Positions 1,651-60,896 of a DNA stretch of 64,000 nucleotides are shown piece by piece. The DNA comes from Siphonodentalium dalli (Eukaryota > Mollusca > Scaphopoda > Gadilida > Siphonodentaliidae). Location: positions 16,802,440-16,866,439 of the forward strand of contig CP136061.1 of NCBI GenBank assembly GCA_032622095.1, read 5' to 3'. Position 1 is the first letter of the stretch, and each line of letters starts with the position of its first letter. The notes under the pieces were generated by a model, which worked only from the letters and a program-made list of their open reading frames with translations, did not search any database and was not told the origin of the DNA. Both the position numbers and the translations under genes were made by a program.

Positions 1651-2571
1651 CTACGCTTCTCTGACTTTCGATATCGTATCCTTGTTAGCCCATGTATTTC
1701 GATTTTTTCCCCTGTTAAAACATTTCTTAGGTATGTGCGCATCAGCTAGTTCCATGACGGATTTGTTGAACATATTCCAGGCTTGTTGTAGTTCTATTTC
1801 ATGTAATCCTGACCAATCTTTCTCTCCCAGTTGTTGTCGTATCATATCGTAATTACCTTTGTGCCATAGAAAGCTGGGCTCCTTTGAATACTGATGGGCA
1901 GTTAATAGAGATGGTTCTATTTCAAACATAATAACGTCATGGTCGCTTTTACCTAGTGCTGCTTCGTGATCAATATTACTAATAACATCCAGATTATTTG
2001 TTATCAGAAGATCTAGAATGTTAGCTTTTTGATTTTCTCGGTGTCTTGTTGGCATATCTATAAGCTGCTGGAAGAAGTTTCTTGAAAGTGCATCAGCGAA
2101 TGCCTTCGCTTCCTCGTCATGCGAGATGCCAGTATCCCACGAAATTTCTGGATAGTTAAAATCTCCGACGATAAACACATTCTTGCGAGAAAAGGTACCC
2201 AAGGTGTCTATCAATTTTACAAGAAACTCGTTGATTTTATCGGATTCAGGACTACGGTATACACACCCAAATTGGATGGAATCATGACCTGTTTTCCATT
2301 CACACCACACTGATTCTGTGTAGCTACCACTCTCCAATTCCATGCATTTCTGTGCTGCCAGTGAGCGATGTGTATAGATAACAGTTCCTCTTTTAGTATT
2401 GTTTCCGAAGAATGCGTCATAGTAATCTATTTGGAATTCACTATCTGAAACATCTGTTTTCGTGCGTTTAGGAAGAGTTTCCGTTATGCAAATTATAGCA
2501 GGTCTATGTTCTTTTATGCGTAAATGAAGTTTGTCACGTTTATTGATCAGGCTATCGGCATTTGTATACAT
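1651..2571 (-). pseudogene. LINE ORF2 N-terminal part: AP-like endonuclease
   Basis: 306 codons starting MYTNADSLINK. This is the endonuclease/exonuclease/phosphatase fold that nicks target DNA for target-primed reverse transcription. Visible landmarks: N-terminal 'TNADSL' (residues 3-8), 'ITETLP' with the metal-binding Glu31, 'VYRSP' (104-108), 'GDFNYPEISW' with Asp137, 'LDLLITNN' (187-194) and the catalytic 'SDHD' (209-212). The upstream in-frame sequence is open to a TGA at 2623-2625, so translation could begin slightly earlier than the ATG at 2571. The frame stops at a TAG (1651-1653) only because of a one-base shift. The other frame across 1650-1690 reads an Arg/Lys-rich linker (SEKRRAYKKYRR) typical of the segment joining endonuclease to RT. 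Confidence 0.9.
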
Positions 2572-2676
2572 ACATATGGGATTAAAGTCATTTGAGGTTG
2601 AAGTCGGATGACTTGTTGCATATCAGGCAGTCCTCTGCATCAACCCCAATCCACTCCGTTTCACGATCTTGTCATC

Positions 2677-3477
2677 TCAAATGAAGAATTGTTCTTTGGG
2701 AAATTTCTTTCTCATTTCATGGCATTCCTCTCTGAGCTCTTTTTGTCGTTTACTCTCTGCAACTGTATAATCACGATTGAAATAAATTTTGGCCCGGTTT
2801 GAAGTATCCTTCACATTTTTGTTATATGATACTGCTTGTTGTAACAACTCATTTCTAGTTTCTTCTGTTGTCAAAATCAGTTTCATTGGACGAACTTTAC
2901 CCTGCGATTTAGTCCCAAGTCTATGGAATGCCTTCACTTCTTTGACGTCTATGTTCGTCATTCTCTCTAGGGTCTGTTCAATTAATTTTTTATCTTCAAT
3001 TCGAGAAAGTTCTGGGTCGGTTTCTTCGCTCTCCTTTATGTTTGCTACAATTATATACTTCTTTCGTTTTTGTTTCTGTTCGTACTCTTTAAAGCGTTCT
3101 TCTATTCTTGTGTCAAGGGATTCTTTGATTTGTTCCATTTCTACTTCAGACTGCTTTTTCTGGTCACGAAGGAGCTTCACTAATGAGTCCAACGTTGCTC
3201 TCATTGCCTTCATTTCCTCATGGATATTTTTATCAGAACTTTCTGTTTCTGCTGCGCAATTCTTACATAACCATTTCACACTTATTGACTTTTTCGTCAA
3301 TAATTTGTGGTCAGCAGCTGTCAAGTCTTGGCATTTTAGATGATATCTTCCATTGCAAGCTTCACATATTATACCAGTTGTATCCGTTTTTATATCTTCG
3401 ACACACAATCTACATGCTCGATCCTCTTTCTCATTGTTTGATGTAGTGGAAACCTTTCTCTTGGATGTTTTAGACAT
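2677..3477 (-). CDS. LINE ORF1: PHD finger, coiled coil, RRM-like domain
   Basis: 266 codons from an ATG in an A-rich context (3475-3477) to TGA. Residues 22-74 form a PHD-type zinc finger: Cys22, Cys25, Cys38, Cys41, His46, Cys49, Cys71 and Cys74 (C4HC3). Residues ~84-140 are a charged coiled coil (Glu/Lys heptads), and ~140-230 resemble the RRM-like nucleic-acid-binding domain of LINE ORF1 proteins (starts KKYIIVANIKESEE). ORF1 proteins of this type coat the element RNA and trimerise through the coiled coil; the PHD finger is common in CR1-like ORF1. This frame is intact even though ORF2 is broken. Confidence 0.88.
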   Translation of the reverse strand: MSKTSKRKVSTTSNNEKEDRACRLCVEDIKTDTTGIICEACNGRYHLKCQDLTAADHKLLTKKSISVKWLCKNCAAETESSDKNIHEEMKAMRATLDSLVKLLRDQKKQSEVEMEQIKESLDTRIEERFKEYEQKQKRKKYIIVANIKESEETDPELSRIEDKKLIEQTLERMTNIDVKEVKAFHRLGTKSQGKVRPMKLILTTEETRNELLQQAVSYNKNVKDTSNRAKIYFNRDYTVAESKRQKELREECHEMRKKFPKEQFFI

Positions 3478-3793
3478 TTTTAAGGTTTGAGATTCTTGAC
3501 ATCTTTGTCGTTGCTAAGGACTTGTATTGTCTCCTAACGAAAATAGGCAATGTCTTTAAGAAACTGTCCAGAAAATACATCCGTATTGTCCTTTGTTGAT
3601 ACAGATCCAGTTTATCCTTTGTAATCCATGTAATCCATTGATTATTGTGTTTCCGTAGCTTTGTTCCGTCATATTTGTTCGTATTTCTTGATAACTTACG
3701 CTTATTATGCTAGACCTTTTATTTTTCCATCTTCTCCATTATGACGTCACAGGAAACTTTATTATATAAGCGAGACTCAAATCACAAAGACAA

Positions 3794-18390: not shown

Positions 18391-18490
18391 CTGATGGTTT
18401 CTGAAGAATTACTATGGAGGGAAAGAGTTATGGCCCTGGCTTCTCACCTATATGACCTGATGATAGCTCCACCCGTTTCCGATATCTGGT
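18291..18490. repeat. Perfect 100-bp tandem duplication
   Basis: 18291-18390 and 18391-18490 are identical base for base, beginning CTGATGGTTTCTGAAGAATT and ending GATATCTGGT. The unit joins the 'gagttatggccct' repeat to the start of the 122-bp satellite (AGCTCCACCCGTTTCC), so the junction itself was duplicated recently. Confidence 0.95.
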
Positions 18491-18890
18491 CTGCGCATGC
18501 GCGAAGCTGGCGTCGCACGGGCTCGGCGACCAGATAAAATTTGTATCCGGGGCAAGATACATTCACATAGCAAATTTCAAGTCGATAGCTCCACCCGTTT
18601 CCGAGATCTCGTCTGCGCATGCGTGAAACTGGCGTCGCACGGGCTCGGCGACCCGATAAAATTCGTATCCGGGGCAAGATACATTCACATAGCAAATTTC
18701 AAGTCGATAGCTCCACCTGTTTCCGAGATCTCGTCTGCGCATGCGCGAAGCTGGCGTCGCACGGGCTCGGCGACCCGATAAAATTCGTACTCGGGGCAAG
18801 ATACATTCACATACCAAATTTCAAGTCGATAGCTCCACCCGTTTCCGAGATCTCGTCTGCGCATGCGCTGCACGGGCATCGCACGGGCTC
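18462..18890. repeat. 122-bp satellite, block 1
   Basis: About 3.5 copies with a 122-bp period (CATGCGCGAAGC-type cores at 18497, 18619, 18741). Each unit carries TCTGCGCATGCGCGAAGC, a palindromic NRF1-like motif, then GGCTCGGCGACC, a GATACATTCACATA block and CAAATTTCAAGTCGATAGCT. The same satellite forms block 2 at 47335-48262. Overlapping open frames of 84-94 codons on both strands are artefacts of the array. Confidence 0.95.
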
Positions 18891-19032
18891 GCCAATACGA
18901 CAACGACCACCGCCTGGTCAAACTACACACACGTACCAAGTTTCGTCCCGATCGGTCGAGAATCGTAGATTTGTATTAAGGACAGACAGACAGACAGACA
19001 AACAGACAGAGGTCTTCAAAATATATATGAGA
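18888..19032 (-). mobile_element. Helitron-type 5' end region attached to satellite block 1
   Basis: After the satellite comes a tail also found after block 2 (48262-48381): CGCCAATACGACAACG, GTTTCGTCCCGATCGG, a GACAGACA tract (18980-19010) and TTCAAAATATATATGAGA. On the minus strand this begins TCTCATATATATTTTGAAG and is preceded by A, as Helitron 5' ends are. The corresponding 3' end (hairpin plus CTRR) was not found at the other side of block 1. Confidence 0.6.
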
Positions 19033-19218
19033 TTTCGGTCTTTAATATGTATGTGGAAACATCCCAACAGAGGGATTGACGGGAGGACATACTGACAGAC
19101 AAATTCAATCCAATATACCCCCCCCCCAAGTTTTCTTTTTAAATCAGGGTATGAGTACAACTGGATAGGTGGTGGTTAAGAATATAATAGTGGAACAGCC
19201 AAGCCTGAATATAGTGTC

Positions 19219-21180: not shown

Positions 21181-21574
21181 GTCGGTCGGGTTACGGAAAC
21201 TCGCATTCATCTTGTTTTGGCCTAATCAAACTGATCAAATCCCAACCTATAAAATCACTATAGAAACTATACAGGTAGGCTACTGAGGTAGGCCTACAAA
21301 CAAATCATGTTCTTGGAAATTGAATGTTCTTCCTTACTTATGTTCTAATGATTTGGGTTGTGATTTGAAACAAACAAACAACCCAAATTATGAGGGGGTA
21401 AACCCAAGTTCTCACTCATAATAACCCCAATTTCCAACCAAGGACAAGGGTTGTGGAGGCGAGTACAACTAATAAAGTAATAATCATCCAAATTGAGAAT
21501 GGGCATATGTGCCAGTCAAAAAAATGGCCCCGGGGAGCCACGATCGAAAAGCTGGAAGATACATGTATGAGTAT

Positions 21575-21787
21575 TGTAACGAGAGAAGGGTGGAATGCGG
21601 GAGTCGCACCGAAAGTTGGCAACACCCGAAATCTCAGGCCACCGGTCACCCATCCAAGTGATAACCGGGCTCGACGTTGCTTAACTTCGGTGACGAGACA
21701 AGGCGTCTTAACCACTGGACCAAAGAAGCATGCTCCGTTGGAGCTGTTGATTAATCGGCCTTCTATATTTACAGCGCGACCGCTACA
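21575..21787 (-). repeat. 3' LTR of TRIM copy 1
   Basis: 213 bp. It differs from the 5' LTR by 8 substitutions and 6 additional bases (GCGACC) near its outer end. On the minus strand it begins TGTAGCGGTC and ends CGTTACA. It carries a 5S-like segment at 21612-21698. Confidence 0.9.
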
Positions 21788-21801
21788 TTCCTCCCTTCCT
21801 C
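21788..21801 (-). other. Polypurine tract of TRIM copy 1
   Basis: On the minus strand GAGGAAGGGAGGAA directly precedes the 3' LTR, the position used to prime plus-strand DNA in LTR retroelements. Confidence 0.85.
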
Positions 21802-21880
21802 GTTTTGAGGTTCACCACCAAGTGATCCTCACCCAAGTTCCTCTCTCAGAGCGGTCGCACCATGACACAGACTCTGAGGA

Positions 21881-21895
21881 CCGGACGAGCCCCCA
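21881..21895 (-). other. tRNA-Pro primer-binding site of TRIM copy 1
   Basis: The minus strand reads TGGGGGCTCGTCCGG one base after the 5' LTR. This is the 15-base complement of the 3' end of animal tRNA-Pro including its CCA, the same primer site as in murine-leukaemia-type retroviruses. The next bases (TCC) do not continue the match. Confidence 0.88.
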
Positions 21896-21896
21896 G

Positions 21897-22103
21897 TGTA
21901 ACGGGAGAAGGGTGGAATGCGGGAGTCGCACCGAAAGTTAGCAGCACCTGAAATCTCAGGCCACCGGTCACCCATCCAAGTACTAACCGGGCTCGACGTT
22001 GCTTAACTTCGGTGACGAGACAAGGCGTCTTAACCACTGGACCAAAGAAGCATGCTCCGTTGGAGCTGTTGATTAATCAGCCTTCTATATTTACAACGCT
22101 ACA
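21897..22103 (-). repeat. 5' LTR of TRIM copy 1
   Basis: 207 bp, TGTA...TACA ends. Upstream of the 5S-like segment in the sense direction is TGGTCCAGTGGTTAAGACGC, which resembles a tRNA A box (TGGTCCAGTGG), so the LTR may combine two RNA polymerase III promoter pieces. The tRNA part is a tentative reading. Confidence 0.88.
21934..22020 (-). other. 5S rRNA-derived segment in the 5' LTR (a second one at 21612-21698)
   Basis: On the minus strand the segment contains CCGAAGTTAAGCAACGTCGA, then GCCCGGTTAGTACTTGG, then ATGGGTGACCG, then a diverged GGCCTGAGATTTCAGGTGCT. These line up with animal 5S rRNA box A, intermediate element, box C and the 3' part. About the first third of 5S is absent. The internal control region looks intact in this LTR, so polymerase III transcription is conceivable. 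It is not a functional 5S gene because the 5' end is missing. Confidence 0.88.
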
Positions 22104-22446
22104 AGTATAATATGATAATTCTGAGGTACAGACCCAACCCCCTACCAAAAGCAACCAACTTCGTGTACGTAATTGGTTATAAGAAATATTTATAGTTATT
22201 TGTTAATTAAATCTTGACGTTCATATTATAAGACAACACATACCGGGTATTAGTCTGAGTAGTGCAGGTCGTGACTGCACGGTCGTCCTTTTTTACATGG
22301 ATTTCAACGCCATAATTTTTTGTTGCAGATCCTTTGGAAATTTTGACACTTAAGATTGTTTTACAGACAAAAAATACCTTTGTCAGAACTTCAAATATTT
22401 TGAAAAAAACAAACTTCTGTCAAATGTTTTTGTTTTATATTTTTTA

Positions 22447-22515: not shown

Positions 22516-24770
22516 TACTAAGTTCGCTTTCGAACATGGGCGCCGCCATCTTGAATTAGGGGCTCCGCCATTTTGAATTTGAGGGGCCGCCATCTTGAAA
22601 CGTCATTCCAATTAAATTAAAACTACAAAATGTTACTTTTCATATAGCCAACATAACATTATTCATTGCGTTAAGGCATTACATGGTTTATTCTTTGAAG
22701 AATAATCATGACTTAAATCATAAATATTGTCGATCGGACTCGGGTTGCTATGCCATTCGGGAAATGTCGGAAATTTACGTAAAACTGCAAATTTTCCTTA
22801 GCCACCTCACGAAAACAACATAGGCCTAATTCATATCGTAAATATCTTGAATCTTTATGATCCTTTATCATATAACTAAATAAACTTTTCTTTAGTTTAG
22901 TAAATTAGTAGAAGCATGTTCTGTAAACTGTTAGATTACGTCATATTGTCACGCGCATTTTCCCGCGAAAGTTATTGACGTTTTGACAGCGACGCGACAT
23001 AGCACACAAAGCAGGCATAATGTTGGCATGGTTCGCATTAGGTTTGGTTGGGTTGACGTTGTTTCATAGTGCATGGTTCCGAGTCCGCGCTGGTATAAAT
23101 GTAGCTCCATGCAATCAAACTGATCAAATCCCAACCTATAAAATCACTATAGAATCTATACAGGTAGGGCCTACCGGTACTGAGGTAGGCCTACAAACAA
23201 ATCATGTTCTTGGAAATTGAATGTTCTTCCTTACTTATATTCTAATGAATTGGGTTGTGATTTGAAACAAACAAACAACCCAAATTATGAGGGGGTAAAC
23301 CCAAGTTCTCACTCATAATAACCCCAATTTCCAACCAAGGCCAAGGGTTGTGGAGGAGAGTACAACTAATATTTCGTCCAAATTGAGAATGGGTATATGT
23401 GCCAGTCAAAAAAATGGCCCCGGGGAGCCACGATCGAAAGGCTGTAAGATACATGTATGAGTATAATATGATAATTATGAGGTACAGACCCAACCCCCTA
23501 CCACAACTTGGCACAAATTCAAATCAAATTGTTTATTTGGTATAGAATCCAATATTAGATTATTACCAACACATATAAAGAACATAACAAAAGGACATTT
23601 ACATCAATACATGTATACATTCAAGTACATAAAGTGAAATTGTAGGTTCTACAATAGAATAGAGGTTTGGTGGATCTTACTGATATTAAGTACATGTTTG
23701 CCTATATTTTGATACCATCCCAATAGCAGGTTTCAGTTCGCAAGCTCATTCCTTTTTTTATACATTTTATAAACTCCCATCATACATATTTTCTTTATGG
23801 ATGTGTCAACTTCATTTGGACTTAATATGAAAGTAACTTTTTCATCATCGCTGTAGTTATTAAATTCAGGAATATTATACTGAATTTTATCAAGCATTGT
23901 CTTCCTCTCAACTTTTAGGGGCTTACAGTCTATAATAAAATGCTTTTCATCCTCCACTCCATTCTTACAGATAGGACAAATTCGATCTTTTAGTTCAAGT
24001 TTTGATCTGCCCTTTTCAATTAATAACTGACTGTCACTAATCCTAATCTTAGTATTAGTAGTTTTTACTTCATTATCTAAGTCAGCTAATAGGTAACTTT
24101 CACACTGATACAAATTTTTCAGTTTTCTATAAAACCTTAATTTGTTACCGTTGGGTTTATTCTCATCGTTAAATAGTTGTTTTTTCCAGAACTCGGTAAA
24201 TCTGATTTGTAATTTCTTTTCAACTTCTCTAGATTCACCCCTGATAGTATAGTTATTACTATGTTTAACCGATTCACTACCTAAGTCTACTTTTTCCAAT
24301 ATTATTTTTATTTGATCACAAAAGCCCATCTCAAGTTTCTGATTTTCCAAATAAGCCTTGTGTACTAATGACTCAGGGTTAGATTGAACCAAGTGGTTAT
24401 GGTAGTTTAAGCTGTTCTTTATTCCAGAAATGTAGACAGGAAATATTCCTAATTCTCCAAAACAGGCCATATTGGTGGCAGATCTGTTAACACCAAGAAC
24501 AAATTTCATGAATTTCATTTGATTTTTATCTGGGAGAAATGTACTTGCTCTTGTCTCAAAATCAGATGCTCTCCGAACAATATGGTCGGGAGTGGTCAGC
24601 TCCCCGCACAAGCAACCAACTTCGTGTACGTAATTGGTTATAAGAAATATTTATAGTTAATTAAATCTTGACGTTCATATAAGTCAACACATATTAGTCT
24701 GAGTAGTGCAGGTCGTGACTGCACGGTCGTCCTTTTTTACATGGATTTCAATGCCATAATTTCTTGTTTG
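22489..24770 (+). repeat. Composite repeat X+Y, copy 2 (interrupted by a LINE fragment)
   Basis: X part 22489-23115 is continuous with Y part 23116-23502, showing that X and Y are one repeat. It is interrupted at 23507-24606 by a truncated LINE and resumes at 24612. In copy 1, X and Y are separated by 4.25 kb. Minor differences between copies are single-base changes and short indels. Confidence 0.9.
23507..24606 (-). mobile_element. 5'-truncated LINE, C-terminal end and 3' tail
   Basis: The insertion lies in the Y repeat with a probable 5-bp duplication CACAA (23502-23506 and 24607-24611). Its single open frame (24606 to 23733, about 290 codons) has the layout of the region after RT in many LINEs: 'FMKFVLGVNRSATNMACFGE' with a following LGIFPVYIS block, then a C-x2-C...H...C motif (ICPICKNGVEDEKHFIIDC) late in the frame. 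There is no initiation codon of its own because the 5' part is missing. The 3' tail ends AAATAAACAATTTGATTTG, a short ATTTG-type repeat. This is a different family from the LINE at 1-3477. Confidence 0.82.
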
Positions 24771-24840
24771 GTGCTTCTGTCGACCTATACTATACTATTA
24801 GCTCCAGGGAAGCTCTAAAGATTTACACTCTTTAGAGCTT

Positions 24841-25502
24841 CAGATTGGGTCAGTAGTGGCCAAATCTGATGCTCATACCTTTTCTAATTACAGGCGACAA
24901 AGGACTCCTGGTCGCAGATTCTGCTTGGTTCTCTTATTATGGTGACAATAAAGACAAGATTCCACCAAAAGTTCCGAAATCCGCGCCTTCATGAGCTAAA
25001 ATAAAGACTTTTGTCATTTGTGCAAAAGAAATTGTTGTCTGTCTGTTTACGGAAGCGATATTTCACCACATGTTAATGCTGTTTGTCATGCGCAGTTCAA
25101 TGTTTCATGATGGTCAATAAAACGTGTACTCCACCCCGAAGACGACTGTTGGAAATGTGTACTTGGAAGATATTATGGAAAAACTAAATTCTTTTGCTAA
25201 ATGTTATGCTACTATGCCAATTTATTACATATGTAATAAAAATATTACCGAAAAATTATCAACATATACTTTTTAATAGAATTGTTGCTTCGAAAATATA
25301 CTATTTAAAACGTGTACTCCAAGCCAGAATGAGAAAAAGTGTAGCCGAGTTAGATCATGCTTTATTACCCACTTCTACAAAATGTTGTATTATACTTTCA
25401 ACAAGTTGTAGAAATATATTGGTGATATGAAGTAATTATTTTATTCAGTGAAACATAATCACTTCTCACATTTGTCATGCATGGTGTCAAAAAAATGACA
25501 TA
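24841..25502. repeat. Long inverted repeat, left arm
   Basis: About 660 bp, nearly identical in inverse orientation to 26326-26982. It begins CAGATTGGGTCAGTAGTGG and ends near AAAAAAATGACATA. Differences are few (an ATGC insertion, a few substitutions). Both arms hold the same 78-codon open frame with no recognisable domain; its presence in both follows from the duplication. Confidence 0.93.
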
Positions 25503-26325
25503 ATCACATCGTCGCGCATTGATAGCTGCGCGAACTGTGTTTGTATTCTAACACCCATAAGGTTTGCTTTCGTGTGCCTATTGCGTATATATATACAATA
25601 ACAACATTTGTTCAAAATAAGCTTTAGTTATCAGAATCGATTTACTGCAACAGACTAATGCTATAAACCAGTCTTGAAACTGTATGGTAAAAAAAAGTCT
25701 CAAAACTTGTTAGGCCTATTTATGAACAATAAAATGGCGATATATTATCACTAAAGTGTCACTAAATAGGTTATTATAATTAGCGTTTGTTTCGCTAATA
25801 TGAAAACATGTTACACCTAAAAATATTTGCTTTTGGAAAAGAGCATTCCGTGTGAGTCTATTCCTGATATGGTATAAATAAATAGCGTTTGTTTCACTAC
25901 TGTGCGAACAACGGACGACCAGATGATGGTGCAAGTTTGTAGCTGTTAGTGCAGGGGGAAAACCAGGACAAAGAAAACTATAACAAAACGGCTACCATGA
26001 AGTCTGCTTATCCCAATCCCAGATACAGGACGAGAGTAGGTACCGTAATTAAACTGAACAAATAGACACTGAATGGAAAAAAAAAAACCCGATATTGGCC
26101 AAATGTATGAGTCGGATCCGGAGTAGGGCAGTAGACCTACACTTTTTAATGCTATTTCGATGTACACTTTATTATAATAGGAGAATGATTGTTTTGTTCA
26201 ACTTTTAATGAAGTTAACAATGGTATAAGTATATATACCGTATAGTGATGCAATTATACCATATATCTTCCGAGTATCGGTACCGGTATACACACAATTT
26301 CCCCGAGTCGGCGTCAGGGCCGGAG
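25503..26325. other. Loop of the long inverted repeat
   Basis: About 820 bp of AT-rich sequence. Two short open frames on the minus strand (25716-25934, 25946-26167) show no motif. A CGGTACCGGTATA palindrome lies near 26278-26290. Confidence 0.5.
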
Positions 26326-26982
26326 TATGTCATTTTTTGACACCATGACAAATGTGAGAAGTGATTATGTTTCACTGAATAAAATAATTACTTCATATCA
26401 CCAATATATTTCTACAACTTGTTGAAAGTATAATACAACATTTTGTAGAAGTGGGTAATAAAGCATGATCTAACTCGGCTACACTTTTTCTCATTCTGGC
26501 TTGGAGTACACTTTTTAAATAGTATATTTTCGATGCAACAATTCTATTAAAAAGTATATGTTGATAATTTTTCGGTAATATTTTTATTACATATGTAATA
26601 TATTGGCATAGTAGCATAACATTTAGCAAAAGAATTTAGTTTTTCCATAATATCTTCCAAGTACACATTTCCAACAGTCGTCTTCGGGGTGGAGTACACG
26701 TTTTATTGACCATCATGAAACATTGAACTGCGCATGACAAACAGCATTAACATGTGGTGAAATATCGCTTCCGTAAACAGACAGACAACAATTTCTTTTG
26801 CACAAATGACAAAAGTCTTTATTTTAGCTCATGAAGGCGCGGATTTCGGAACTTTTGGTGGAATCTTGTCTTTATTGTCACCATAATAAGAGAACCAAGC
26901 AGAATCTGCGACCAGGAGTCCTTTGTCGCCTGTAATTAGAAAAGGTATGAGCATCAGATTTGGCCACTACTGACCCAATCTG
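26326..26982. repeat. Long inverted repeat, right arm
   Basis: Inverted partner of 24841-25502. Together the structure spans 2.1 kb and could be a transposon with long TIRs or an inverted duplication. No target duplication is evident beside CAGATTGGG and CCCAATCTG. Confidence 0.93.
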
Positions 26983-27740
26983 AGTCTCATACATGTGTAT
27001 ATCATGTATGTGACTCAACTGGGTCTACTATACTATAGGCTATAGGCTAGCCTATAGACAACAACAAGACCAAATATTCCCAGATTCCATTGATTTTTCA
27101 AAAAACCTTTGAGGTTGCTACTCATATAGGCAATCGGGATCGTGTGCGCCGACACTTACGATTGAATCGTCTGAACGCTCATCACTTACTCAAGTTACTG
27201 TCCGATTTCGATAAGGTTGTGTAGATTGATAAGGGCGCAGCCATTTTGTTGTCCCGCACTAAATGTACAAAATTCGTAACCATATAATGGTGTAATAATT
27301 TCGTACGTAATACTGTTTCGTAACCATTTTTGTAATCAGCGTTAAAGTTAAGGGGTGGCTGTCATTCGGGTGCACGTGAATTGTGTAACATGTGCGCAAG
27401 GCGCTCATCGAGACACAGTTGAAAGTATTTAACAAAGTAATTCACAGTTAAGAACCCAAAGTCATTCTTCGAAATACTGCATTACCCAGTGGATATACAT
27501 GTATATACCTGCTATATATACAACATACTTATTACGTGTGCAGCGTGTATACTAATATACAAATTCTCGTTTCGCCTGGGCGCTGCCATAGCGCATGGGG
27601 GTTCTAATTATAGAATGTTAATTATTGTGACACATTAAAACTTGTAGTGCGACCCCGAGGACGAGCCCGGTCAAAGGTGTGGTTGCGAATTTCAATTTCG
27701 TTTATTGGCGTTTACATTATATATGTCAATAATGTTGATT
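26983..27740. other. Stretch without recognisable genes
   Basis: Contains an 18-bp perfect palindrome CTATAGGCTAGCCTATAG (27040-27057) and otherwise nothing I can assign. Confidence 0.35.
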
Positions 27741-47266: not shown

Positions 47267-48381
47267 TAGCCGATGAGCCCGACGTTGTCCGGGCTATTCA
47301 AATACCAAATTTCGTTGTCCGGGCTATTCAAAAACCAAATTTCAAGTCGATAGCTCCACCCGTTTCCGAGATCTGGTCTGCGCATGCGCGAAGCTGGCGT
47401 CGCACGGGCTCGGTGACCCGATAAAATTCGTATCCGGGGCAAGATACATTCACATACCAAATTTCAAGTCGATAGCTCCACCCGTTTCCGAGATCTCGTC
47501 TGCGCATGCGCGAAGCTGGCGTCGCACGGGCTCGGCGACTCGATAAACTTCGTATCCGTGGCAAGATACATTCACATACCAAATTTCAAGTCGATAGCGC
47601 CACTCATTTCCGAGATCTCGTCTGCGCATGCGCGAAGCTGGCGTCGCACGGGCTCGGCGACCCGATAAAATTCGTATCCGGGGCAAGATACATTCACATA
47701 GCAAATTTCAAGTCGATAGCTCCACCCGTGTCCGAGATCTCGTCTGCGCATGCGCGAAGCTGGCGTCGCACGGGCTCGGCGACCCGATAAAATTCGTATC
47801 CGGGGCAAGATACATTCACATACCAAATTTCAAGTCGATAGCTCCACCCGTTTCCGAGATCTCGTCTGCGCATGCGCGAAGCTGGCGTCGCACGGGCTCG
47901 GCGACTCGATAAACTTCGTATCCGTGGCAAGATACATTCACATACCAAATTTCAAGTCGATAGCTCCACCCGTTTCCGAGATCTCGTCTGCGCATGCGCG
48001 AAGCTGGCGTCGCACGGGCTCGGCGACCCGGTAAAATTTCGTATCCGGGGCAAGATACATTCACATACCAAATTTCAAGTCGATAGCGCCACCCATTTCC
48101 GAGATCTCGTCTGCGCATGCGCGAAGCTGGCGTCGCACGGGCTCGGCGACCCGATAAAATTCGTATCCGGGGCAAGATACATTCACATAGCAAATTTCAA
48201 GTCGATAGCTCAACCCGTTTCCGAGATCGCGTCTGCGCATGCGCGAAGTGGGCGCCGCACGGGCTCGCCAATACGACAACGTCCACCGCCTGGTCAAACT
48301 ACACACACGTACCATGTTTCGTCCCGATCGGTCGAGAATCGTACAGACAGACAAACAGAGGTCTTCAAAATATATATGAGA
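47267..48381 (-). mobile_element. Helitron unit carrying the 122-bp satellite
   Basis: 5' end TCTCATATATATTTTGAAG at 48381, GACAGACA-type tract, tail as at 18888-19032, then ~7.5 satellite units. The 3' end has a hairpin AGCCCG GACAACGT CGGGCT followed by CATCGGCTA, where the final CTRR is imperfect. The internal tandem repeat and terminal hairpin resemble the HINE/DINE layout known from flies and molluscs. Confidence 0.75.
47335..48262. repeat. 122-bp satellite, block 2
   Basis: About 7.5 units (starts near 47335, 47458, 47580, 47702, 47824, 47946, 48068, 48190). Same unit as block 1 with the TGCGCATGCGC palindrome each time. Variants of the unit (for example CTCGATAAACTTCGTATCCG) recur two units apart or further, suggesting block duplication in the array. 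Confidence 0.95.
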
Positions 48382-57619: not shown

Positions 57620-58235
57620 TCCTGGTGTGGGTGTGCTGTGTCAATATAGTCTCACAAATGAGAAGGGGGTGTGGGGGTCAATATAGTCTCACAAATTAGA
57701 AGGGGATGTGGGGGTCAATAATAGTCTCACAATAAGAAGGATATGTGGGGGGTCAATATAGTCTCAACAATGAGAAGAGTGGAAAGTGGGTGGGGTCAAT
57801 ATAGTCTCACCAATGAAAAGAATGGGATATGGGAGTCAATAGAGTCAAACCAATGAGAAGGAATGTGGGGGGGGGGGTCAATATAGTCAAACCAATGATA
57901 AGGGATTTGTGGGTCAATAGAGTCTTACAAATAGGAAGGGGTTGCGGGGGTCAATATAGTATCACCAATGAGAATGAGATGTAGGAGTCAATATAGTCTC
58001 ACCAACGAGAAGGGGGTGTGGGGGTCAATATAATATCACCAATGAGAAGGGGATATGGGGGTCAATATAGTCTCACCAATGAGAAGGGGAAGTGGGGGTC
58101 AATATAGTCTCACCAATGAGAAGGGGAAGTGGGGGTCAATATAGTCTCACCAATGAGACGGGGATATGGGGGTCAATATAGTCAAACCAATGAGAAGGGG
58201 GTGGGGGAGGTCAATATAGTCATACCAATGATAAT
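57620..58235. repeat. ~37-bp minisatellite, block 1
   Basis: About 16 units close to GGTCAATATAGTCTCACCAA plus TGAGAAGGGGATGTGGG. Unit length varies through the G-run. The array resumes at 59040 in the same orientation. Confidence 0.95.
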
Positions 58236-59039: not shown

Positions 59040-60190
59040 GTATATTCTACCACAATAAGAAGGGGTGTGTGGGTCAATATAGTCTCACCAATGAGAGAAG
59101 GGGTGTGGGTCAATATTGGCTCTCACATAAGAAGGGCTTGCGGAGGTCAATATAATCTCTCCAATGAGAATGGGATGTGGGGTCAGTATAGTCAAATGAG
59201 AAGAAGTGGATGCGGGGTGGTCAATATAGTCTGTCCAATGAGAAGGGGGGTGTTGGGGTCAATATAGTTTCACCAATGAGAAGAAGGGGTGTGGGTCAAT
59301 ATAATCGCACCAATAAGAAGGGCTGTTGGTCAATATAGTCTCACAAATGAGAAGGGGTGTGGGTCAATATGATCTCACCAATGAGAACAGCGGTGTGGGG
59401 GTCAATATAGTCTCACAAATGAGAAGGGGTATGGGTGAATAGTCTCATCAATAAGAAGGGGTGTGTGTCATTATAGTCTCACCAATTCAAAGGGGTGTGG
59501 GTCAATATAGTTTTACCAATGAGAAGGGGTGTGGGTCAATATAATCTCATCAATAAGAAAGGCTGTTGGTCAATAGTCTCACCAATGAGAAGGGGGTGTG
59601 TGAATAGTCTCACCAATAAGAAGGGGTGTGGGTCAATATAGTCTCTCCAATGAGAAGAAGGGTGTGGGTCAATATAGTCTCACCAATAAGAAGGGATGTG
59701 GATCAATATAGTGTCACCAATAAGAAGGGGTGTGGATCAATATAGTCTCACCAATGAGAAGGTGGTCGGTCAATATAGTCTCACACACAAGATGGTGTTG
59801 TGGGGGTCAATATAGTCTCATCAATAAGAAGGATATGTGGGGGGGGGGGTCAATATAGTCTCACCAATCAGAAGTGGATGTGGGGTCAGTATCGTCTCAC
59901 CAATGAGAAGGGGGTGTGAGGGAAGTCAATATAGTCTCACCAATGAGGAGGGGATGTTGGGTGGTCAATATAGTCTCGCCAATGAGAAGGGGATGGGGGA
60001 GGGTCAATATAGTCTCTCCAACGAGAAGGGGACGTGGGGTAAATATAGTCTCACCAATGAGAAGGGGGTGTGGGGGGGGTCAATATAGCCTCTCAAATGA
60101 GAAGGGGTGTGTGGGGGGGGTCAATATAGTATCTCAAATGAGAAGGGGATGTGGGAAGGTCAGAAGTTCAATATAGTCTCACCAATGATA
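59040..60190. repeat. ~37-bp minisatellite, block 2
   Basis: About 30 units of the same type as 57620-58235, with somewhat shorter units (GTGTGGGTCAATATAGTCTC) in the first half and G-rich longer units at the end. Open frames reading VNIVSPMRRG are artefacts. Confidence 0.95.
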
Positions 60191-60526: not shown

Positions 60527-60896
60527 TGTAACAGAACGAGGGAGAGAAGTGCGGAAGTCGCACCGAAATTTGGCAGCACCTGGAATCCCAAGCCGGTCAC
60601 CCATCCAAGGACTAACAAAGCTCGACGTTGCTTAACTTCAGTGATCACACAACTCGTCTAACGGCTGTGACCAAGAGATCTAAACCTCTCGAGCAGAGAA
60701 GTCATCGGCCTTCTATATTTACAACGCGACCGCTACACTAACCCCCGTTCTTATTGATATTCACCGAATCGCACCTGAGTCCTCCCCCAGAGCGGTCGCA
60801 TCATGACACAGACTCCGAAGAGCGGACGAGCCTCAGTGTAACAGAACGAGAGAGAAGTGCGGGAATCGCACCGAAAGTTTGCAGGACCCGGAATCC
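60527..60896 (-). mobile_element. 5S-carrying TRIM, copy 2, truncated
   Basis: LTR at 60527-60737 (TGTA...TACA), interior 60738-60836, then the first ~60 bp of the second LTR (60837-60896), after which sequence is unrelated. Same orientation as copy 1. The 5S-like segment (about 60566-60647, minus) keeps GATCACTGAAGTTAAGCAAC, closer to normal 5S at that point than copy 1, so the two derive from a more complete 5S ancestor. The primer site is altered to TGAGGCTCGTCCG. The interior includes AGAGCGGTCGCATCATGACA, as in copy 1. Confidence 0.88.
60566..60647 (-). other. 5S rRNA-derived segment in TRIM copy 2
   Basis: Minus strand: GATCACTGAAGTTAAGCAAC, GTCGAGCTTTGTTAGTCC, TTGGATGGGTGACCGGC. Box A and box C are recognisable; the intermediate element is changed. 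Confidence 0.8.

Follow-up and report, generated by a model that had tools for sequence, protein, structure and literature searches.

A TRIM retrotransposon family with 5S rRNA promoter sequence in both LTRs and a tRNA-Pro primer site in a genome of animal appearance

The 64,000-nt stretch of DNA analyzed here (the window) harbors on its minus strand a complete miniature LTR retrotransposon (TRIM), and its features are collected in Table 1. The element starts with TGTAGCG and ends with GTTACA, its LTRs have TG..CA termini, and a direct repeat of 206 nt represents the LTR pair, with 95.6% identity between the 5' and 3' LTRs. The internal region opens with a C followed by the primer-binding site (PBS) TGGGGGCTCGTCCGG, which is located one base from the LTR. 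With a size below 1000 bp, two LTRs, a PBS after the 5' LTR, a polypurine tract (PPT) before the 3' LTR, short target-site duplications (TSDs) and no coding capacity for mobilisation, the window copy has the features of a TRIM. When the flanks of the element were joined, they matched the second copy of the local host repeat without interruption and with a single AGTAT. The first-pass annotation of this DNA had described an LTR miniature with a PBS, a PPT and LTRs of 207 and 213 bp with TG..CA ends, and its coordinates proved to be exact; the 5-bp duplication AGTAT and the empty site in the second host-repeat copy that it had reported were both borne out by the joining of the flanks.

Table 1. 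Coordinates within the window of the TRIM, its parts and related features
Feature	Position	Strand	Remark
Complete TRIM, LTR-internal-LTR	21575-22103	minus	529 bp
5' LTR	21897-22103	minus	207 bp; 6-bp deletion near start relative to its own 3' LTR
TATA-like motif AAATATAG, 5' LTR	22085-22092	minus	LTR positions 18-25
tRNA box-A-like 11-mer TGGTCCAGTGG	22034-22044	minus	lead only
5S rRNA gene-derived stretch, 5' LTR	21942-22024	minus	alignment to host 5S; Rfam 5S model 26.4 bits (gathering 38)
Box A, 5' LTR	21994-22008	minus	identical to host 5S
Intermediate element (IE), 5' LTR	21986-21991	minus	identical to host 5S
Box C, 5' LTR	21961-21978	minus	first 14/18 nt identical to host 5S
Internal region	21788-21896	minus	109 bp
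PBS TGGGGGCTCGTCCGG	21881-21895	minus	15/15 to 3' end of host tRNA-Pro(AGG)
PPT GAGGAAGGGAGGAA	21788-21801	minus	end of internal region, before 3' LTR
3' LTR	21575-21787	minus	213 bp
5S rRNA gene-derived stretch, 3' LTR	21620-21702	minus	alignment to host 5S
Box A, 3' LTR	21672-21686	minus	
Intermediate element (IE), 3' LTR	21664-21669	minus	
Box C, 3' LTR	21639-21656	minus	first 14/18 nt identical to host 5S
TSD AGTAT, low-coordinate copy	21570-21574		
TSD AGTAT, high-coordinate copy	22104-22108		
Empty target site, second copy of local host repeat	23322-23506	plus	
Second-subfamily copy	60527-60895	minus	full-length 3' LTR 60527-60737, internal region with decayed PBS, 5' LTR remnant

A search of the genome (2.23 Gb in 9 very long contigs) with a 528-bp query returned 45 matches from the 40 candidates that were scored out of 1699 first-look candidates, and the copy number is therefore a lower bound. 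The 40 loci that were fetched are the best-scoring matches and not a random sample; both ends were readable in 33 of them and not in the other seven, and removal of four that were duplicates by their flanks left 29 independent insertions. TSDs of 4 bp were observed in 23 of these insertions, TSDs of 5 bp in three (the window copy, L018 and L042), and no TSD in the remaining three, so that the 5-bp duplication first noted is exact for the window copy and a minority form in the family. Two full LTRs were present in 33 of the 40 loci, and the copies thus have an LTR-internal-LTR structure, the arrangement that the first-pass annotation had proposed to look for, and are not solo SINE-like copies of 5S sequence. 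Within copies, the divergence between the 5' and 3' LTRs ranged from 0 (L036, whose LTRs are identical) to 4.4% (the window copy). Locus L021 contains a tandem array of three LTRs and two internal regions, L037 shows three LTR matches, one of them without the first 16 nt, L078 also shows three LTR matches, and the internal region of L082 measures about 40 bp. Judged from these copies, the family is dispersed in the genome and includes recent members.

Both LTRs contain, in the sense of the element, a stretch of about 83 nt derived from the 5S rRNA gene (about 87 nt as first noted). The host 5S genes used for comparison came from the same genome, where 47 of 95474 first-look candidates were scored and all 47 exceeded the Rfam cut-off, which gives at least 47 genes; six loci were examined in sequence, and the gene is of a type that we take to be lophotrochozoan. 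The 5' LTR aligns to positions 34-113 of the 5S gene of locus L049 with a score of 105, compared with a maximum of 31 among 1000 dinucleotide shuffles and 18 for the opposite strand, and the 3' LTR reaches a score of 95 (maximum of 27 among 1000 dinucleotide shuffles). The similarity is thus above chance when measured against real host 5S genes, as the first-pass annotation had asked to be checked. The longest block identical to host 5S extends over 51 nt in the 5' LTR (TCACCGAAG...GGTGACCG), where it spans box A, the IE and most of box C, while the 3' LTR has an identical block of at most 32 nt; the limits of the three boxes are those of vertebrate 5S genes. The boxes had been described as intact in the 5' LTR; they are indeed present there and occur in the 3' LTR as well, and the intact part of box C is in both LTRs its first 14 of 18 nt. 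Two variants of the host 5S gene were observed, one with CTTGG in L049 and L052, which is the form found in the TRIM, and one with CCTGG, which occurs in the L053 and L054 arrays.

The Rfam 5S model scores structure as well as sequence. A scan of the window at the Rfam gathering thresholds gave no match, the score of the 5' LTR with the 5S model remained below the 38-bit cut-off (Table 1), the 3' LTR gave no match to it at E<=10, and six other loci of the family gave no Rfam 5S match at E<=1. Because the model is weak or silent on the LTRs, these keep the letters of the 5S promoter and not the fold of the 5S rRNA.

A second subfamily of the element is represented in the window (Table 1) and, elsewhere in the genome, by seven fetched loci (L068, L072, L073 and L077-L080). 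The minimum match length for the LTR alignments was about 195 nt in subfamily 1 and 180 nt in subfamily 2; the subfamily-2 set consists of 14 usable LTRs, including the window copy, which were kept from 16 matches after removal of two window matches that are subfamily-1 LTRs picked up by the subfamily-2 query. Loci L061 and L062, which resemble subfamily 2 (71-79% to its LTR), were left out of the counts. Subfamily 2 looks older than subfamily 1, because its LTR pairs joined by BLAST (L073, L078, L079 and L080) are only 79-89% identical. Its LTR is also similar to host 5S, with a score of 96 and a shuffle maximum of 25. When the majority sequences of both subfamilies were compared, the 5S core (nt 94-146) was identical at 49/53 positions and the upstream stretch (nt 35-93) at 34/59, a difference with a Fisher P of 2.5e-5 for region limits that were chosen after the alignment had been inspected and for columns treated as independent. 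Since the core is kept to this extent compared with the upstream stretch, and since the core of each majority is 50/53 identical to host 5S, the data suggest that the 5S promoter core has been under constraint between the subfamilies. Such conservation is not special to 5S sequence, as the LTR start (nt 1-34, 34/34) and tail (nt 167-192, 26/26) are fully kept and the 3' part of the 5S stretch (nt 147-166) is identical at 13/20 positions. Of the 74 subfamily-1 LTRs, 39 contain box A, IE and box C together as exact strings; none of the 14 subfamily-2 LTRs does, and only one of these has the exact IE string. Among subfamily-1 copies, the 5S stretch was as variable as the remaining LTR sequence or more so, which is what would be expected if most copies are dead.

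Further promoter-like motifs surround the 5S core. The equivalent of the 5S +1 position is position 53 of the full-length LTR, and the TATA-like motif AAATATAG is located 28-35 nt upstream of it, within the first 34 LTR nucleotides that are identical in both subfamily majorities. An upstream element of a 5S gene could occupy this place, and the motif would also suit Pol II. The tRNA box-A-like 11-mer TGGTCCAGTGG was found upstream of the 5S core in 70/74 subfamily-1 LTRs and 0/14 subfamily-2 LTRs, a looser form of the motif in 72/74 and 0/14, respectively (and in 1.8% of shuffles), and a box-B-like motif, which was chosen post hoc, as an exact string in 50/74 and 8/14 (0.1% of shuffles). A tRNA-type hybrid promoter is treated here as a lead and not as established; it has no support from tRNA models, which found nothing at E<=10 in 21500-22200 and nothing at E<=1 in six loci; ARAGORN found no tRNA in the window. 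The Pol III terminator TTTT is absent from the window copy and present in 7/74 subfamily-1 and 3/14 subfamily-2 LTRs; its absence is not significant as evidence for Pol III, as 40% of the shuffles of LTR plus internal region also lacked it. The signals AATAAA and ATTAAA are likewise absent from the window copy.

A host tRNA-Pro(AGG) gene is present in locus L083, and its 3' end, once extended by CCA, is complementary to the tRNA strand of the PBS pairing at all 15 positions, which confirms the 15-base tRNA-Pro primer site one base from the LTR that had been noted at first. In L072 (minus strand), 37/38 nt after the LTR end match the tRNA-Pro complement, far past the 15-nt PBS; behind them come a fragment of LTR end and a second, imperfect PBS. 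The simplest reading of this stretch would be a copied primer, that is, a fossil of tRNA-Pro-primed reverse transcription. At C2:216065073-216065150, 58 bp separate a match to the tRNA-Pro 3' half from a site with LTR end plus PBS on the same strand; the match is perhaps another copied primer. The tRNA-Pro 3'-half pattern has 266 exact matches genome-wide, one of which was confirmed as tRNA-Pro(AGG). Among the 100 matches listed, in contig order, 98 fall within C3:244762463-245637861, many of them recurring about every 1413 bp and some as opposed pairs 114 bp apart.

A pattern combining the LTR tip with the tRNA-Pro PBS (GTTACA-N0-4-TGGGGGCTCGTCC) occurs at 173 sites in the genome, and the reversed control at none. 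Twenty of these sites were fetched, 18 of them picked for a spacer differing from the C of the TRIM; eight turned out to be 5S TRIMs and 12 were others. Ten translated pieces from four of the 12 non-TRIM sites were scanned for Pfam domains, and reverse transcriptase (RT), RNase H and integrase were found in L070 and L065, and RT in L066. A gag-like frame of L065 has a CCHC zinc knuckle, another L066 piece gave a match below the cut-off, and no Pfam match was obtained for the third piece of L070 or for either piece of L081. The order RT-RNase H-integrase in L070 and L065 is that of the Ty3/Gypsy type. The L070 element (minus strand) has an LTR pair with 99.9% identity over the 1009 nt compared, its LTR starts with TGTAATAG after the purine tract GGAAGGGGAGAA and ends with GTTACA, and CATA on both sides forms a 4-bp TSD, the partner TSD being known from this one element; it is seemingly a young Gypsy-type element. 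L070 and the TRIM share the primer site, the LTR tips, the type of PPT and the usual duplication length of 4 bp, although GTTACA itself had been included in the pattern searched for. BLAST revealed no further sequence common to the candidate partners and the TRIM. For these two reasons, the tRNA-Pro Gypsy-type elements are a plausible rather than an established partner, and they are candidates for the autonomous partner sharing PBS and ends that the first-pass annotation had proposed to search for.

The anatomy of the copies, the 5S origin of the LTR stretch, the PBS match, the TSDs and the empty site, the dispersal of the family, its low LTR divergence and the candidate partners are features of the sequence itself. 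We consider it probable that the element is a non-autonomous TRIM with a captured 5S promoter, transcribed by Pol III, primed by tRNA-Pro and mobilised in trans by Gypsy enzymes. With TFIIIA, TFIIIC and RNA polymerase III in the roles that they have at 5S genes, these factors would most likely recognise boxes A, IE and C of the 5' LTR, perhaps with the assistance of the conserved TATA-like motif upstream, and the RNA would start around LTR position 53. Transcription would continue across the internal region, enter the 3' LTR and, because the window copy has no TTTT, probably pass beyond it. The R region would then extend from about position 53 to the LTR end, an arrangement in which strand transfer should still be possible. 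Synthesis of the minus strand would be primed by host tRNA-Pro at the PBS, a Ty3/Gypsy-type element sharing this primer site would provide reverse transcriptase and integrase in trans, and integration would yield duplications of 4 bp and sometimes 5 bp; the Pol III start and termination and the mobilisation in trans by the tRNA-Pro Gypsy group are what we infer. A more specific version of this reading is tentative, and we rate it as somewhat unlikely: it would have the 5S promoter captured independently in an animal of lophotrochozoan type, with a core matched to the host 5S gene, a mixed Pol III promoter in the younger subfamily (TATA-like plus tRNA-type box-A-like and box-B-like motifs around the core) and the use of tRNA-Pro Gypsy enzymes.

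The name TRIMp3 has been proposed for TRIMs with a Pol III promoter (Kojima 2024, PMC10886601), and the present element, whose LTR holds small-RNA-gene sequence with promoter boxes, is a new 5S TRIM family of this already known kind. The doubt expressed in the first-pass annotation, whether animal examples had already been reported, was justified, as the same article describes Ajax, which was found in two nemerteans, Notospermus geniculatus and Lineus longissimus, and is a 5S TRIM with a tRNA-Leu primer, 5-bp TSDs and a length of 421 or 434 bp. Ajax is judged there almost certainly independent of Cassandra, and its 5S part is related to SINE3-like sequence (PMC10886601). Like Cassandra, the element described here has the 5S promoter in both LTRs, the size of a TRIM, a promoter core like the 5S of its host and tandem LTR-internal arrays (here L021, L037 and L078). 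In contrast, Cassandra is a plant element and the host here is not a plant, as far as can be judged; the Cassandra PBS TGGTATCAGAGC has its best match in the element at 7/12 positions, the PBS here being TGGGGGCTCGTCCGG, and the published query boxes of Cassandra, box A RGTTAAGYRHGY and box C RRRATRGGTRACY, match at 10/12 and 12/13 in both LTRs (PBS and boxes as given in PMC7215508). The proposal of a convergent animal counterpart of Cassandra can thus be kept insofar as the genome is of animal type, the PBS and boxes differ and the origin is probably independent, and not insofar as it implied the first animal case, in view of Ajax. Most likely, the 5S capture was separate from those of both Cassandra and Ajax, the family being set apart from the latter by its published description.

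Similarities were also observed with other animal elements. Helenus elements, TRIMs with tRNA-like LTRs, are known from fungi, animals and plants, and their animal families share with the present family the TRIMp3 class, 4-bp TSDs, a supposed Gypsy partner and, in bivalves, tRNA-Pro among the primers (PMC10886601); unlike Helenus, the LTRs scanned here showed no match to tRNA models and the box-A-like 11-mer is confined to subfamily 1. The biv-TRIM of bivalves is likewise an animal TRIM, but a canonical PBS was not identifiable there, and the text describing it contains 0 occurrences of '5S rRNA' and 'polymerase III' (PMC6934838). The combination of 5S sequence, tRNA-Pro and 4-bp TSDs was not found in the titles, abstract starts and passages of the open-licence PMC literature, including PMC10886601, PMC7215508, PMC10853983, PMC6934838 and PMC12859917 (a 2026 meeting report). 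Together with Cassandra and Ajax, the present family suggests repeated takeover of the 5S promoter by LTR elements. A single assembly, made up of nine very long contigs, contains the 5S genes and the primer tRNA gene of the host as well as both subfamilies and the candidate autonomous partners, so that promoter mimicry and the problem of the missing partner (none is indicated for Cassandra in PMC10886601) become testable.

Other explanations were weighed against the captured Pol III promoter. The element could be an ordinary TRIM driven by Pol II from the TATA-like motif at LTR positions 18-25, with the 5S piece as an inserted passenger, and the location of AAATATAG among the first 34 LTR nt, at which the two subfamily majorities do not differ, is in agreement with this possibility, as is the exact IE box in just one of the 14 subfamily-2 LTRs. 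A passenger, however, does not account well for a 5S core better kept between subfamilies than the sequence upstream of it and in each case 50/53 identical to host 5S; the window copy lacks AATAAA and ATTAAA, and the position of the TATA-like motif would also suit an upstream element of a 5S gene. We therefore regard Pol II transcription of this type as unlikely. That the sequence is a SINE3 element or a 5S pseudogene repeat mimicking an LTR element would fit a 5S sequence within a short, dispersed, gene-free repeat, and SINE3 also has a 5S-derived internal promoter. This explanation is refuted by the structure of the copies and is extremely improbable, as they have two TG..CA LTRs, a PBS, a PPT and TSDs of 4-5 bp in 26 of the 29 independent insertions, together with an empty site and candidate Gypsy partners, whereas SINE3 elements are without LTRs or PBS and are moved by LINEs (PMC10886601).

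Descent from the same lineage as the nemertean Ajax, vertical or by transfer, with a later switch of the primer tRNA and of the TSD length, was also weighed. Both are TRIMs of similar length in animal hosts, with 5S box A, IE and box C in the LTRs and no functional 5S rRNA to be expected from them, and primer switches have been reported among Helenus families (PMC10886601). Nevertheless, the tRNA-Leu primer and 5-bp TSDs described for Ajax differ from the tRNA-Pro site (15/15) and mainly 4-bp TSDs found here (23/29; 5 bp in three). Moreover, the 5S stretch here extends near the 3' end of 5S and has a 51-nt core equal to the host 5S gene, whereas the 5S part of Ajax was linked by Kojima to SINE3-like sequence, and a candidate Gypsy partner is present here in the same genome, a further difference from Ajax as described in PMC10886601. 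A common lineage with Ajax thus appears quite unlikely, and the separate capture of a 5S promoter remains our preferred reading.

The window contains other repeats besides the TRIM copies. On the minus strand at 1651-3513 there are remains of a non-LTR retrotransposon, presumably CR1-like, with a PHD-finger frame and an endonuclease frame. The latter has 106 homologues, five of which carry organism names (Paralvinella, Holothuria, Elysia, the nematode Pristionchus and one bacterial bin), and on the basis of these named relatives and of the 5S type, the host genome looks like that of an animal. A 122-bp tandem unit, open in one frame, is shared by 47326-48267 (7.7 copies) and 18462-18891 (3.5 copies), and the stretch 18592-19092 gave no Pfam match. 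Minisatellite-like arrays with units of 34-37 bp are located at 57640-58231 and 59053-60162, and an inverted pair at 24840-25505 and 26323-26983 (666 nt, 98.6% identity) is probably a recent repeat.
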